A DNA stretch of 49,147 bases. Origin: Candidatus Levybacteria bacterium RIFCSPHIGHO2_02_FULL_37_13. GTDB lineage: Bacteria > Patescibacteriota > Microgenomatia > Levybacterales > UBA12049. Where the stretch lies: positions 1 to 49,147 of the forward strand of contig MFNZ01000028.1 in assembly GCA_001782195.1 (NCBI GenBank), written 5' to 3'. Position numbers and translations under genes: made by a program. How positions within the stretch are numbered: the first letter of the stretch is position 1; each line of letters starts with the position of its first letter. Shown here one piece after another: positions 6,327 to 12,194 of the stretch. Under the pieces are notes generated by a model. That model was not told where the DNA came from. It worked only from the letters and a program-made list of their open reading frames with translations, and made no database searches.

Positions 6327-6474
6327 CTTATTAGCAGAGGATGATATAGATTGATATAGTAATTAATTAAATATTATAGGATGTTCATCACATTTTAAAT
6401 GTGGATAACTTATATGTTTCACGGGAATTAACTCCACTTTTCACACCGTAGGAGCTTATGTCTTGTCTCCCTTC

Positions 6475-6580
6475 AGTCCGCCTAATCTTTCGTACACGGC
6501 GCAAAGAGCGATTTATCGGCGGACATTAGAAGCAGTATTTACTCTCCCGACAAGTCGGGATCGTAAACTGCTTCTAATGA
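6475..6580. repeat. compound palindromic element, copy 2
   Basis: GTCCGCC...GGCGGAC forms the outer dyad and is followed by the hairpin TTAGAAGCAGTATTTAC - CCCGACAAGTCGGG - GTAAACTGCTTCTAA. It has the same architecture and core as 2966-3087, but the flanking stem has changed on both sides so that pairing is kept. Confidence 0.7.
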
Positions 6581-6634
6581 AAAAAATACGAAAGCCACTT
6601 GCGTAGCATATATTTTATTCTTCTTTTCAGAATG

Positions 6635-6762
6635 AGGCTAAAAGTAAGACTTTAGATCGTAAAATGGATCTAAAGTACACTATAGCCTGAGCAGTTAGGG
6701 ACTGCTTAACTTATTGTTTTCGAAGCTAAAATTCGTAGTTTAGATAGGTTTATCAATCTAAA
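6635..6762 (+). ncRNA. candidate structured RNA
   Basis: Four perfect hairpins lie within 128 bases, one nested inside an outer 6-bp stem. There is no reading frame. Family unknown; strand chosen arbitrarily as plus because flanking genes read that way. It may be part of a longer RNA spanning the 6.6-7.05 kb stretch. Confidence 0.3.
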
Positions 6763-7161
6763 TGTAACACTGTCCAGACCTTGAGGAGAGAGGGGTTCTC
6801 GATCTAAGTTATATTAATGATAAAGTAAAGAATAAGAATTTGTTTCAAAACATATTGTTCGAGCGTAGTCGAGAACAAGCTTCTCGATTCGCTTGGCTCT
6901 CTCGAAGAATATAGACTCTTTAAACGAATTCTGATGAAATAGTGGTGAAAAGACTGGGAGAAGAGAAACTAGTTATGTCGTACAATAATACTTTTACGAC
7001 GTCAGCCAGATACAAACTTTCGGAGAAGTGGTCTTAAACAGTTATTTTTTCGTTAACTTTTTGGTCAAATAATTCCTACGCTCTGGTTTGCTTTCCTCTA
7101 TTTATCGTTATTTTACGTTATTTTAAAATACTTATCCTGTCCCCTACTATAGGTTTCTGCC

Positions 7162-7203: not shown

Positions 7204-8487
7204 ATGGTTCAACAAGCAGAAGCGCTTAGAGATGCATTTTCAAGGCGTGGGTTTATAGAGCAAGCTGAGGCCGCTGAACGTTTTCGCCAAGAAATCAGCG
7301 AACTTCCTGATACCCCTAAAGATCTGGACGGTGTTGTATTGTTTGATGCGCAGACCCAGGTAGGTTCAGACCAACAATTAGAAAAAGTAATTTCTCATTC
7401 GGGATTTACCTATGCCTTACAATTAAACACAGTAGTAGTGAATGGTAAAGGAACACAGTTGGGTATACCGGAAGGAAAAGTTTTAAATTTATTACTGCAG
7501 AATATGGGCACTATTGTAACGTATAAGCAGTTTGAAGTGGTTTGGGAAGGTAAGCAAGTTAATCTTCCCACTGTTTTAAGACGTCATATTAGTACGCTTA
7601 GGGACGCCTTGGAGCCTGATAAAAAGGAGGGAGAGTTTCAATATTTACTGAATGAACGGGGAAAGGGATATAAACTGGTTGATCCAAATAAAGCGATGCT
7701 TTCCTCAAATCAGGATCTTGACAAGCAGGAAGCAATTATGAGGACAAGTGAAATTGCGCATATTGATAATAATAATGTTTCGACTCCGGAAGGGATGATA
7801 TTTCGTCATTATGCATTTACATTTGATTTACAGACAGGACGTGTTGTGATGAAAAAGGATGGTGAAGATGTAAGGTTGACTGATACAGAAAGAAGATTAT
7901 TGGGTTTATTAGCTCAAAGACACGATGTGGTCGTGTTGCATAAAGAAATTTGCATGAAGATATGGGGTAGAAATGAGTCTGATGGTAATAGTTATGAAAA
8001 GAAGGCTGTGGAAAGACTAAGAAGGAAGATTGAGCCAGAAATTAAAGATAGAAAAAAGTCTAAAATTTTACGCTCTGTCCCTGGTTTGGGATATGTCTTA
8101 AATACTGAACCTTACAGAATATATAGTCATAGTGGATTTACTTACTATCTAGAAGATAAGCGTGTGGTTTTGGCTAATGGTAAAGAGTATCGTTTAGATA
8201 AGCATAAGCAAGAGAATGTAATTTTAGAGTTGCTAACAGAGAGTCCAGGTAAAATCGTGCGGGAAGGGGTGCTTGAGGAGGCATTAGATGATCTTAGTAC
8301 AGGCGAAATGTACGTAGATTCTCCATTAACAAAATATATGTTTAGACTACGAAAAAAGCTTGAGCCAAACGGGAGAAGGGGCAATTTTCGATATATTATC
8401 TATGAGAGAGGGATTGGATACAAGTTAGTTGATCCTGAGAGAAGTGAAAATTCTCCTGTTGCTGTATTTGAAAAGCTTTATGCTTAG
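7204..8487 (+). CDS. three tandem OmpR/PhoB-type winged-helix domains, no receiver
   Basis: 427 residues. After a charged helical head (about 1-65) come three copies of the Trans_reg_C winged helix-turn-helix at about 66-160, 200-300 and 303-412. Each starts with an aromatic beta hairpin (HSGFTYALQLNTVVV, HYAFTFDLQTGRVVM, HSGFTYYLEDKRVVL). Each has a recognition-helix region with LRDALEP, LRRKIEP or LRKKLEP and ends in the wing motif G-x-G-Y-x-L. There is no phosphoacceptor domain and no membrane segment. OmpR-type domains normally occur once, after a receiver, so three in a row should read an extended or repeated operator (inference). A paralogue with the same layout follows at 10044. Confidence 0.8.
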   Translation: MVQQAEALRDAFSRRGFIEQAEAAERFRQEISELPDTPKDLDGVVLFDAQTQVGSDQQLEKVISHSGFTYALQLNTVVVNGKGTQLGIPEGKVLNLLLQNMGTIVTYKQFEVVWEGKQVNLPTVLRRHISTLRDALEPDKKEGEFQYLLNERGKGYKLVDPNKAMLSSNQDLDKQEAIMRTSEIAHIDNNNVSTPEGMIFRHYAFTFDLQTGRVVMKKDGEDVRLTDTERRLLGLLAQRHDVVVLHKEICMKIWGRNESDGNSYEKKAVERLRRKIEPEIKDRKKSKILRSVPGLGYVLNTEPYRIYSHSGFTYYLEDKRVVLANGKEYRLDKHKQENVILELLTESPGKIVREGVLEEALDDLSTGEMYVDSPLTKYMFRLRKKLEPNGRRGNFRYIIYERGIGYKLVDPERSENSPVAVFEKLYA

Positions 8488-8492
8488 TTTAT

Positions 8493-9962
8493 TTAGTTAG
8501 CGAATTTGTCAACAATTAGTCTTTGGAGATCGGAGTTAAGGCCGTCATAACCAAGCGCCCATATACCGACCCCTTTTAGATTTTTGGCAGATACAAAATC
8601 GTACTTAATACCCAAAGACCGGACATTTTCAAAATGCACTTCGCGTTGAGTTCCTTTATCTGTATATTTGTACGATGGAGTTTGGGATGTTTCATCCCAG
8701 ATTAAATTGTGAACTTTGCTGACTTGAGCAATTTCCGCATAGGAAATAATTGCAGCGCTGGGACTGCCGATTGAAGAATCAAGAGTTATTGGCCAATCAT
8801 ACGCATAGTACGGAACAGCCAGAATAATTTTTTCAGGCGGTACTTTTTCAAGGTATCCTTGCATCAAACCAATGATATTTACAGCTCCGCCCATTGGGGA
8901 AATAGGCCCCGGTGGGCCAAGAGAATAATGCATGTCGTATCCCATTATGACAAATGCGTCTGTATTTTTGGATAAAGCTTGCAGATCAAACAGATCGCGC
9001 ACAGAGCCGGACATGATATAAGTATCGATAGTAAGTATGCCTGTTGGAATTTGGCGTTTGAGTTCGGTATTTAGATTGATTACAAGACGTGTGAATCCGT
9101 TTCTAACGTTATCCGTTGGTGAGCCGATATATTCAAAATCCAGATTGATTCCGTCAAGGTTTTTTGAATTTACAAAATATAGAGCATTCGAAATAAAGGT
9201 TTGTACAGCGCTATCCGATGATACAAGATTTTCTATATCGGTGTTGTTGAAAGATTTAAAAGTTAAATACACCTTTAATCCCTTACTTTTTGCTGTTTTT
9301 ATGAGACTGTCAAGTTTTGGATCTTTCCACATACCCCAACCGCCGTCCGCCTGGCTATCGCTATGAGATGTTATAACATTTCCCTTTCCATCGATTGATA
9401 ATCCAAAAAGACTAATTGAGGTAAGATGGCTTAATTCAATTTTGTCAGCTTGCGAGAGCATCCAGTAAGGAAAAAATCCCAAAACTTCTTTCTTAGGGGC
9501 ACTGCTTATAAGCAAGGGTAAACTGGACTTGGGAAAAGAAAACACTCTTTGGGAATCAATCGGAGCTACATTTGCATAAACCTTTGGCACAATTGGATTG
9601 TTGCTTGTCGTATTTACATTTTTTGTAATATTGTTTGTAATAGCCAGAGGGGTTTTGGTTGACTCAACGGATGGTTTATACAAAAATGTTGTATACCCGA
9701 TAGAAATAAAAGCCAAAATAGCTACAGTTGCGGAAGCAGTTTTTTTGAAACTTGTAAAGGAAATTTTTGGAAAACTTAATTTGGACACAGAGAATTGATC
9801 GGAGTAATTAGGCAATCCTGTTATTTGGCGCATGGCCTCATTGAATTCTTCTTCTCTTGCTCCAAAACTTATCAGGCTTGCCTTTATTGAGCTAAGGTTG
9901 TTTTTGTATTCAGGATGAGCTTCTATATACTTTTTAGCAAATCTTACGTATCCATCTCTCAT
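8493..9962 (-). CDS. membrane-anchored GH18-family hydrolase
   Basis: 489 residues. A helical N-terminal domain (about 1-52) precedes a single membrane helix (about 76-95), a Ser/Asn/Thr-rich linker and a glycoside hydrolase family 18 barrel from about residue 158. The active-site signature DGINLDFEY (acid Glu about 277) is intact, and the MGYDMHY strand follows. The D-x-x-N-x-D-x-E form matches spore-cortex and peptidoglycan-active members more than true chitinases. The enzyme should face outward and cut beta-1,4 amino-sugar polymers, for example cell wall or host glycan. It stands alone on the minus strand between the two winged-helix regulators, which suggests it may be one of their targets (inference). 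Confidence 0.85.
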   Translation of the reverse strand: MRDGYVRFAKKYIEAHPEYKNNLSSIKASLISFGAREEEFNEAMRQITGLPNYSDQFSVSKLSFPKISFTSFKKTASATVAILAFISIGYTTFLYKPSVESTKTPLAITNNITKNVNTTSNNPIVPKVYANVAPIDSQRVFSFPKSSLPLLISSAPKKEVLGFFPYWMLSQADKIELSHLTSISLFGLSIDGKGNVITSHSDSQADGGWGMWKDPKLDSLIKTAKSKGLKVYLTFKSFNNTDIENLVSSDSAVQTFISNALYFVNSKNLDGINLDFEYIGSPTDNVRNGFTRLVINLNTELKRQIPTGILTIDTYIMSGSVRDLFDLQALSKNTDAFVIMGYDMHYSLGPPGPISPMGGAVNIIGLMQGYLEKVPPEKIILAVPYYAYDWPITLDSSIGSPSAAIISYAEIAQVSKVHNLIWDETSQTPSYKYTDKGTQREVHFENVRSLGIKYDFVSAKNLKGVGIWALGYDGLNSDLQRLIVDKFAN

Positions 9963-10004
9963 AATTCATGCCGAATGGGTCATGAAATAATTATGCATTT
10001 TATC

Positions 10005-10034
10005 TTGTTGTTTTGTCAAGCGATTTGATATAAT
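10005..10034 (+). promoter_or_regulatory. promoter of the second triple winged-helix gene
   Basis: TTGTTG (10005-10010), 18 bases, TATAAT (10029-10034). Transcription should begin at about 10041, only about 3 bases before ATG 10044, so the message would be practically leaderless. Confidence 0.65.
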
Positions 10035-10043
10035 ACGCTAGTA

Positions 10044-11249
10044 ATGAGCTCTCAACAGGAAATGCTTCGCCGAACAACCGAATTTAATACTCCACAGCAA
10101 GATCAACATGAAGAGGTAGTTTACAGAAGTGATGGTGTCGTATATAATCATGCCGATTTTTCCTACGATCCTAATAATCCTGGTATTGTTGTGGCACAAG
10201 GAATAGAAAAACGCTTGTGGCCAACAGAAGAAAGATTGTTAAAACTTTTTATCGCAAAACCAAATGAAATAATAAAGCCTAATGAGTTAAAAAAAGATGA
10301 CGGACAAGAGGCATCAGGCGTATATGTAAGATTTTTCGTTTTTTCTTTAAGAAAAAAGCTTGAGCCAGATCCCAAGCATCCTGTTGTAATTATCAACAAT
10401 CAAGGTCTGGGTTATTTTTTAAGAGATAAAAATCAGCTACTGGAAGAAAACAAAACAGTATCTCCCTATCGTTCAGTGGAAAATACTTCAGATAAGTTAT
10501 TGGGTCAGAATTTAAAAGTAATTCACCCGGATTTTACTTATGACGGTTATGATAGAAAAGTTGTTGTGGACGGTCAAGCTACAAGGTTAACTCGCAGAGA
10601 GGACGATCTTCTTAGGGTTTTCTTAACATATCCAAACAGAATGTTTCGTTCATCTGAATTGAATGACATGGTTTTTAGGGACAATTATTCGGACTATATT
10701 TCAAAATTGATAAAGGCTTTGAGATCAAAAGTTGAGAGAGACAGTGCTAATCCTACAGTTATTATTAATTTTCCTCGCGCCGGATATTTTTTGAAGGATA
10801 ATGGAGAGATGAGAATAATTCGTATGGAGGATGAACCACAAGTATAGCCATTAGAAACGAAAGGGTCAGAATTATCATATACCCATCGTGGTTTTAAATA
10901 CTTTCCACAAAGTTCTACTGTCGAAGTTAATGGTACTTATGCCCAAATAAAGGCGACCCAGAATTTATATTTAAAACTTTTTGTTCGAAATCCCAATATT
11001 ATTATAGAACATAATGAATTTGCGAAACTATTGCGAAGAAGAAAAGAAGGGGACAATTATCTTAAAAGTAAAAAAGTAGTGAAGAAGCATATTATGAATC
11101 TAAGGCGAATATTAGAACCGGATAAACGCCATGGAGAATATGAATATATACTTTCAGAGCATGGTTGGGGTTATAAATTATATGATCCAGATAGACTGGA
11201 GTCAAACCCTATCGCGTCGCAAAATATTTACAATTCTTGGGATTTGTGA
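10044..11249 (+). pseudogene. triple winged-helix regulator interrupted by one in-frame UAG
   Basis: The reading frame starting at ATG 10044 stops at TAG 10845-10847 (267 residues, two winged-helix domains at about 36-130 and 165-258). It then continues in the same frame with no other stop to 11249. The continuation, from PLETKGSELSYTHRGFKYF to ...GWGYKLYDPDRLE, is a complete third winged-helix domain with the LRRILEP and G-x-G-Y-x-L motifs of its siblings. Including the UAG the frame is 401 codons plus stop, close to the intact 427-residue paralogue. No ATG or GTG follows the UAG early enough to restart before the domain; the first TTG (11031) lies in the middle of it. Options are a recent nonsense mutation, UAG readthrough giving two protein forms, or a sequence error. 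Confidence 0.75.
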
Positions 11250-11261
11250 TTAAATAGTCAC

Positions 11262-12194
11262 ATGAGTGGTTCTTTGCCCGAATTAATTGACCAATTTTTA
11301 GAATATCTGGAGATAGAAAAAAATTGTTCAAAATTGACTATTCGTGACTATAAACACTATCTGGAAGTCTTCGCAGAATGGTTTGAAACTTCCCTACCCC
11401 TTAAATTTATTTCCGATTTGGATTTGCAAACTGTTAGGAAGTATAGGGTTTTTTTGGCTAACCGCGTTGACGACAAAAGTATGACGTTAAAACGCGTTAC
11501 ACAGAATTATTACGTTATCGCGCTTCGATCTTTTTTGCGATATCTTATTAAAAACGACCATAAAGTGCTTGAACCATCCAAAATTGATTTGCCCAAGACA
11601 GAAAGCCGGTCTTTAAAGTTTTTGGATAAAGATCAGGTGGATCGATTGGTTACAGCGATCGATACATCAAAAGAAGAAGGTATAAGAGACAGGACAATTT
11701 TGGAGCTTCTTTTTTCAACCGGCCTTAGGGTTTCGGAGTTAGTAAGACTTAATCACAACCAAGTAAATCTGGATAGAAAAGAATTTGGGGTAATTGGAAA
11801 AGGAGGGCGCGCAAGGCTTGTATTTGTTTCAGATAGAGCAACAGATTGGATAAAGAGGTATCTTGAGAAGAGAAAAGACCGCTTCTCTCCTTTATTTATC
11901 CGTTATTCAGGACGTGTTATTGAGGAAAATAATGGAGAGAAAATGAGATTAACTGCAAGAAGTGTTGAGCGAATTGTAAAGAAATATGTTAGGCTTGCGA
12001 GATTGCCGGTTGACGCAACTGTGCATACACTCAGACATTCCTTCGCAACAGATTTGCTTTCAAACGGCGCGGATCTAAGGAGTGTCCAAGAGATGTTAGG
12101 GCACAAAAACATCTCAACCACCCAGATTTATACCCACGTAACCAATAGGCAGCTGCGAGACGTTCATCAATCTTTTCACAGTGGAAATAAGTAA
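11262..12194 (+). CDS. Xer-family tyrosine recombinase
   Basis: 310 residues: an N-terminal SAM-like core-binding domain (about 1-105, LIDQFLEYLEIEKNCSKLT) and a C-terminal catalytic domain. Catalytic residues are visible: Arg in STGLRVSELVRL, Lys in the GKGGRARLV hairpin, H-x-x-R in HTLRHSFATDLL, His in LGHKNISTTQ and the nucleophile Tyr in IYTHV. Length and composition fit XerC/XerD/XerA proteins that resolve chromosome dimers, rather than phage integrases. The start is 12 bases after the winged-helix frame, so it may share that transcript. Single-Xer systems are common in reduced genomes. Confidence 0.88.
   Translation: MSGSLPELIDQFLEYLEIEKNCSKLTIRDYKHYLEVFAEWFETSLPLKFISDLDLQTVRKYRVFLANRVDDKSMTLKRVTQNYYVIALRSFLRYLIKNDHKVLEPSKIDLPKTESRSLKFLDKDQVDRLVTAIDTSKEEGIRDRTILELLFSTGLRVSELVRLNHNQVNLDRKEFGVIGKGGRARLVFVSDRATDWIKRYLEKRKDRFSPLFIRYSGRVIEENNGEKMRLTARSVERIVKKYVRLARLPVDATVHTLRHSFATDLLSNGADLRSVQEMLGHKNISTTQIYTHVTNRQLRDVHQSFHSGNK

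Follow-up and report, generated by a model that had tools for sequence, protein, structure and literature searches.

An in-frame UAG ahead of the third winged-helix domain of a tandem gene next to xerC in a Candidatus Levybacteria genome

Two winged-helix genes and their surroundings

Two genes encoding tandem winged-helix proteins were found in the window, meaning the whole 49,147-nucleotide stretch of DNA that was analysed. They lie on either side of a glycosyl hydrolase gene, and a gene for a XerC-like recombinase follows (Table 1). The best matches of this recombinase in named genomes are in Candidatus Levybacteria or Levyibacteriota (Microgenomates, Patescibacteria). Here the two winged-helix genes are called the 7204 gene and the 10044 gene after the positions of their starts.

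When the 10044 gene is translated up to 11249, 267 residues are followed by a single TAG, another 133 residues and then TGA. A previous reading, made from the sequence only, had claimed that this frame is open from its ATG to its end apart from the one TAG, and translation confirms it. The UAG is the sole lesion across the 402 codons of the frame, and there is no homopolymer at the site.

Table 1 Features of the interrupted winged-helix gene and its neighbours in the window.
Feature	Coordinates	Strand	Description
Winged-helix paralogue	7204..8487	+	N-terminal helical region and three winged-helix domains, unbroken; ends in TAG
GH18	8493..9962	-	Glycosyl hydrolase family 18, between both winged-helix genes, syntenic with genome G007
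Two-domain winged-helix ORF	10044..10847	+	267 aa; ATG start, two PF00486 stretches, ends at the in-frame UAG
Winged-helix domain 1	10137..10436	+	Profile match, 104.8 bits
Winged-helix domain 2	10515..10805	+	Profile match, 99.9 bits
In-frame UAG	10845..10847	+	Falls in the domain 2-3 linker; from translation, with domain ends from profile matches
Start-less open frame	10848..11249	+	133 codons and TGA, with winged-helix domain 3 (10872-11192)
XerC-like tyrosine recombinase	11262..12194	+	12 bases past the end of the interrupted frame

Domains of both genes match PF00486 (Trans_reg_C), the DNA-binding domain of OmpR/PhoB-type regulators. In the 10044 gene, two stretches before the UAG match with an E-value of 1.5e-19 (70.3 bits) and the part after it with 4.8e-7 (30.2 bits), all against a curated cut-off of 26.2 bits. 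No receiver domain is among the Pfam matches of either protein at E-values up to 0.1, and the only matches besides PF00486 are two weak ones below their cut-offs in the part after the UAG. Proteins of this tandem type differ from known PF00486 regulators in that no receiver or sensor was found and in that two to four DNA-binding domains stand in tandem per chain. The product of the 10044 gene is probably a DNA-binding regulator. Its domains 1 and 2 are sisters (support 89/89) in a domain tree that was used solely for this pair, the domain classes in it having weak support (61/87).

A non-coding stretch of 900 bases precedes the 7204 gene and contains a 24-nt core, GTCGTACAATAATACTTTTACGAC, at 6977-7000 (within 6974-7003). 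The two arms of the core form an imperfect palindrome about a 6-nt centre, and the xerC-like gene begins ~4 kb downstream of it. An exact match of this core occurs in 43 of the 73 genomes of the family, in one copy each and in two copies in G070; the reversed core, used as a control, has zero matches in the same 73 genomes. Across 12 aligned loci upstream of xerC it is almost invariant, and paired arm changes are seen in L306 and L312. The core is a candidate dif site and looks like part of a Xer system in which site and recombinase gene are linked, an arrangement described for XerS/difSL (PMC2731167).

Further conserved blocks lie in the same non-coding stretch at 6342-6445, 6489-6596 and 6853-6912, the latter two of which match at several scattered places in relatives as dispersed hairpin repeats. 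The region 6400-7160 folds far above its shuffles (z of -6.0 with 20 shuffles). No Rfam match was found in the conserved non-coding stretch; other contigs carry tmRNA and a weak match to RNase P.

The open frame after the UAG

The sequence-only reading described the part after the UAG as a complete third domain with no early start and no decay, and both descriptions hold. Domain 3 has the PF00486 match given above, and the 33 codons that follow the UAG include none of ATG, GTG, TTG, CTG, ATT, ATC and ATA. The earliest common in-frame starts are TTG at codon 62 (11031), GTG at codon 78 and ATG at codon 83, all of them inside domain 3. For lack of a candidate codon, a restart of translation past the UAG, whether by reinitiation or from another start, was rejected.

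The probability that a 133-codon run is stop-free by chance is ~8e-5 at the local base composition. The codon-use score after the UAG is 0.049 in frame, which is gene-like, and negative in both other frames. For this genome it is on the low side, with 8.6% of the gene windows of 133 codons scoring below it, and it resembles that of the adjacent xerC.

Absence of decay is supported by profile scores. Against a profile built from the 14 other domains in a leave-one-out manner, domain 3 scores 84.2 bits and ranks in the top five of the 15 domains, whose scores span 44.1 to 86.7 bits, although such scores compare domains that are ~25-37% identical, so that slight decay could escape notice. Domain 3 also retains the invariant residues of the alignment. 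In an AlphaFold2 model that drew on six domains of the window, domain 3 was predicted to adopt the OmpR/PhoB fold with a mean pLDDT of 79.9 (core ~90). The model has an N-terminal four-stranded sheet, three helices and a C-terminal hairpin, i.e. the strand-helix-strand order of the family. A Foldseek search with it found the DNA-binding domains of PhoP, YycF, ToxR and PhoB at a probability of 1.00, and also CadC.

How long such a frame would last without selection was estimated by a simple neutral simulation, in which the indel rate was assumed to be one per ten substitutions. At 1% divergence, 51% of the runs kept the frame of domain 3 open and free of indels; the share fell to 26% at 2%, 3.8% at 5% and 0.2% at 10%. 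These figures leave two options, a young lesion or selection on domain 3; were domain 3 neutral, the lesion would be young.

Relatives and the number of domains

No close orthologue of the 10044 gene was found in the genus, the genome contigs or the viral contigs scanned; the genus contains this one genome in the collection. Nor was an orthologue sharing the UAG found in the genus, the genome contigs or the viral contigs.

Tandem winged-helix arrays are present in only a few genomes of the family, and the number of domains per gene in the relatives ranges from 1 to 4. Single-domain members occur (G062, G024 and L297). G032 has an array that runs into a contig end after two or more domains. In G040, an unbroken four-domain frame lies immediately upstream of xerC; its domains are ~25-31% identical to domain 3 of the window, and it is a positional counterpart rather than a proven orthologue. 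The sequence-only reading had taken the three-domain paralogue at 7204 to mean that three domains are the normal form. The paralogue does have three domains, but the argument fails because the number of domains is not fixed in the relatives.

On a separate contig of G032 (L250, 256-546), a 97-codon start-less winged-helix frame lies immediately upstream of xerC. It may be an assembly junction, a rearrangement or a decayed gene. We set it aside as an independent second case and do not count it as evidence, since the sequence preceding it appears unrelated and a junction is possible.

The closest relative among the genomes compared is G007, whose XerC is 86% identical. It has a neighbourhood in common with the window that ends in GH18 and xerC, in which ~85 bp separate these two genes with no winged-helix gene between them. 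The 10044 gene was thus either lost in G007 or gained in the genome of the window, and its absence from G007 means that the gene can be done without.

G007 does have an array nearby (L049 5991-7361, minus strand), made of a two-domain frame, a TAA and a one-domain frame in the same phase. This resembles the 10044 locus in having two domains, a stop and then one domain in phase, near GH18 and xerC. It differs in that it occupies the place equivalent to the 7204 gene and not the 10044 gene, in that the stop is TAA, and in that the second frame has an ATG of its own, the third codon after the TAA, and an additional N-terminal region. At this place the window has one three-domain frame (7204-8487) and G007 has two frames of two domains and one, which points to rapid domain fusion, fission and shuffling.

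Fission of the 10044 gene, in which ribosomes would reinitiate past the UAG or use a non-standard start to make domain 3 separately, finds a parallel in the two consecutive frames of G007 and in the single-domain members. However, no start is available within 33 codons of the UAG, and the extra N-terminal region of the second frame of G007 is missing in the window. We regard fission as very unlikely.

Decoding of the UAG and the origin of the stop

The genome is a draft of 1,087,847 bases in 66 contigs, estimated as 84% complete. Among 33 tRNA genes found by ARAGORN in 1,087,083 bases, none has a CUA anticodon, although this is not proof of absence because of the incompleteness of the genome. 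TAG terminates 112 of the 546 long ORFs in the recovered genome, and also terminates the 7204 paralogue at 8485-8487. A homologue of RF1 (prfA) is present with an open frame (G000:C1:79333-80205, on L165; 315 aa between stops). It scores 336 bits, less than the curated prfA cut-off, and its match begins at model position 54. The protein may therefore be truncated, and a short RF1 may be typical of this group.

The genome (~1.09 Mb) was also scanned for same-frame, gene-like continuations of at least 60 codons after a stop, with coding score and lack of a start in the first 30 codons as the criteria. The interrupted 10044 frame is the only clean case, since the other six hits of the scan overlap longer ORFs, and the idea of many interrupted genes in this genome was rejected. 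With a single clean case in the recovered genome, general recoding is not visible.

The organism, therefore, probably does not decode UAG as sense. Reassignment or suppression of UAG throughout the organism has nothing for it beyond the 10044 frame itself, and is contradicted by the long ORFs, and the paralogue, that UAG terminates, by the lack of a second interrupted gene of this sort or a CUA tRNA, and by the presence of RF1. On stop usage, tRNAs and RF1 it was rejected, and we give it practically no chance.

Readthrough could also be confined to this UAG. A near-cognate tRNA would then read it in a selected fraction of cases, with both the two- and the three-domain protein being needed. The undecayed domain 3 and the position of the stop between domains count in favour of such readthrough, and many in-frame stops in bacterial genes do keep dN/dS below 1 (Belinky et al. 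2021, PMC7918605). On the other hand, in-frame stops tend to be lost again within short evolutionary spans (PMC7918605), and UAG is less read through than UGA in E. coli reporters (PMC11126739), where the order is UGA > UAG > UAA. There is no stimulatory hairpin after the UAG, as the fold z-scores relative to shuffles are 0.64, 0.31 and -0.42. The CUA tRNA was not found, RF1 is present and UAG is a routine terminator, and no orthologue bearing the UAG was found. Selected readthrough by a near-cognate tRNA is accordingly improbable.

The sequence-only reading had proposed low-level readthrough as a way to tune binding to repeated operators. This proposal gained no positive support in the form of a CUA tRNA, a hairpin or an orthologue sharing the UAG, and the operators were not seen either: the promoter region of the 10044 gene (9940-10060) has no repeated operators and one 9-nt inverted repeat only. 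A more specific version is very doubtful. In it, selection would keep the linker UAG as a readthrough site, the two-domain protein would be the major and the three-domain protein the minor form, and the differing reach of the two on DNA would tune a regulon, all of this close to the candidate chromosome-dimer resolution site (dif).

The main rival is an assembly error. The codon would be a sense codon in the organism, the UAG having entered the consensus by a base error or from a minority strain, and the gene would encode an intact three-domain regulator. The draft state of the genome allows this, the sequence is intact on either side of the UAG, and an isolated event is what is expected of a stray error. 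Such lesions are, however, rare elsewhere in the genome, so that the assembly is not generally error-ridden, and the local sequence is not a difficult one, lacking a homopolymer at the site. We consider an artefact or a minority variant unlikely.

The best explanation is a recent nonsense substitution, real or polymorphic in the strain, which accounts for all findings with the fewest assumptions. Probably it truncates the 10044 gene and a two-domain protein remains. The ancestral gene would have encoded a receiver-less tandem chain of three OmpR/PhoB-type winged-helix domains. One nonsense substitution, recent and falling in the stretch that joins domain 2 to domain 3, would then have made translation stop at the UAG at 10845, so that the cell would make the 267-aa two-domain protein, with a trace of a longer product by background termination errors, and domain 3 would be a start-less, undecayed remnant. 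The features of such a mutation are in place, namely a single lesion, an undecayed remainder and no start for the remainder. The explanation fits because domain 3 is undecayed, the case is isolated, the frame in G040 is open and G007 is without the gene. We infer that the UAG is real in the organism and recent, and that the gene is either dispensable or functional with two domains.

Against this explanation, the assembly would look identical if it contained a wrong base or had taken up a minor variant of the strain, and the linker is also where a stop would be expected if the two-domain form were selected or two products were intended. A very recent nonsense mutation had been named earlier as the alternative to readthrough, and it fits everything measured, although neither can be proved from one consensus sequence.

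In-frame stops are widespread in bacterial genes; some purifying selection often acts on them, and they tend not to last long (PMC7918605). The 10044 locus agrees well with this picture, its gene being intact apart from one in-frame stop, with TAG among the published examples. It differs in that the published cases were filtered by dN/dS and by stops that several species share, whereas here there is one genome with no close orthologue. A search of the available literature on tandem OmpR-type domains, winged-helix regulators of Patescibacteria and readthrough in CPR returned nothing relevant.

The locus thus adds one more in-frame stop in a bacterial gene and calls for caution in annotation: the piece after the UAG should be annotated as part of the interrupted gene. 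If readthrough were shown after all, a single gene would here yield DNA-binding proteins that differ in domain number, which would be rare in Patescibacteria. Tandem receiver-less winged-helix arrays are a fast-changing group, with 1 to 4 domains that are split, duplicated or lost, and as such merit attention.
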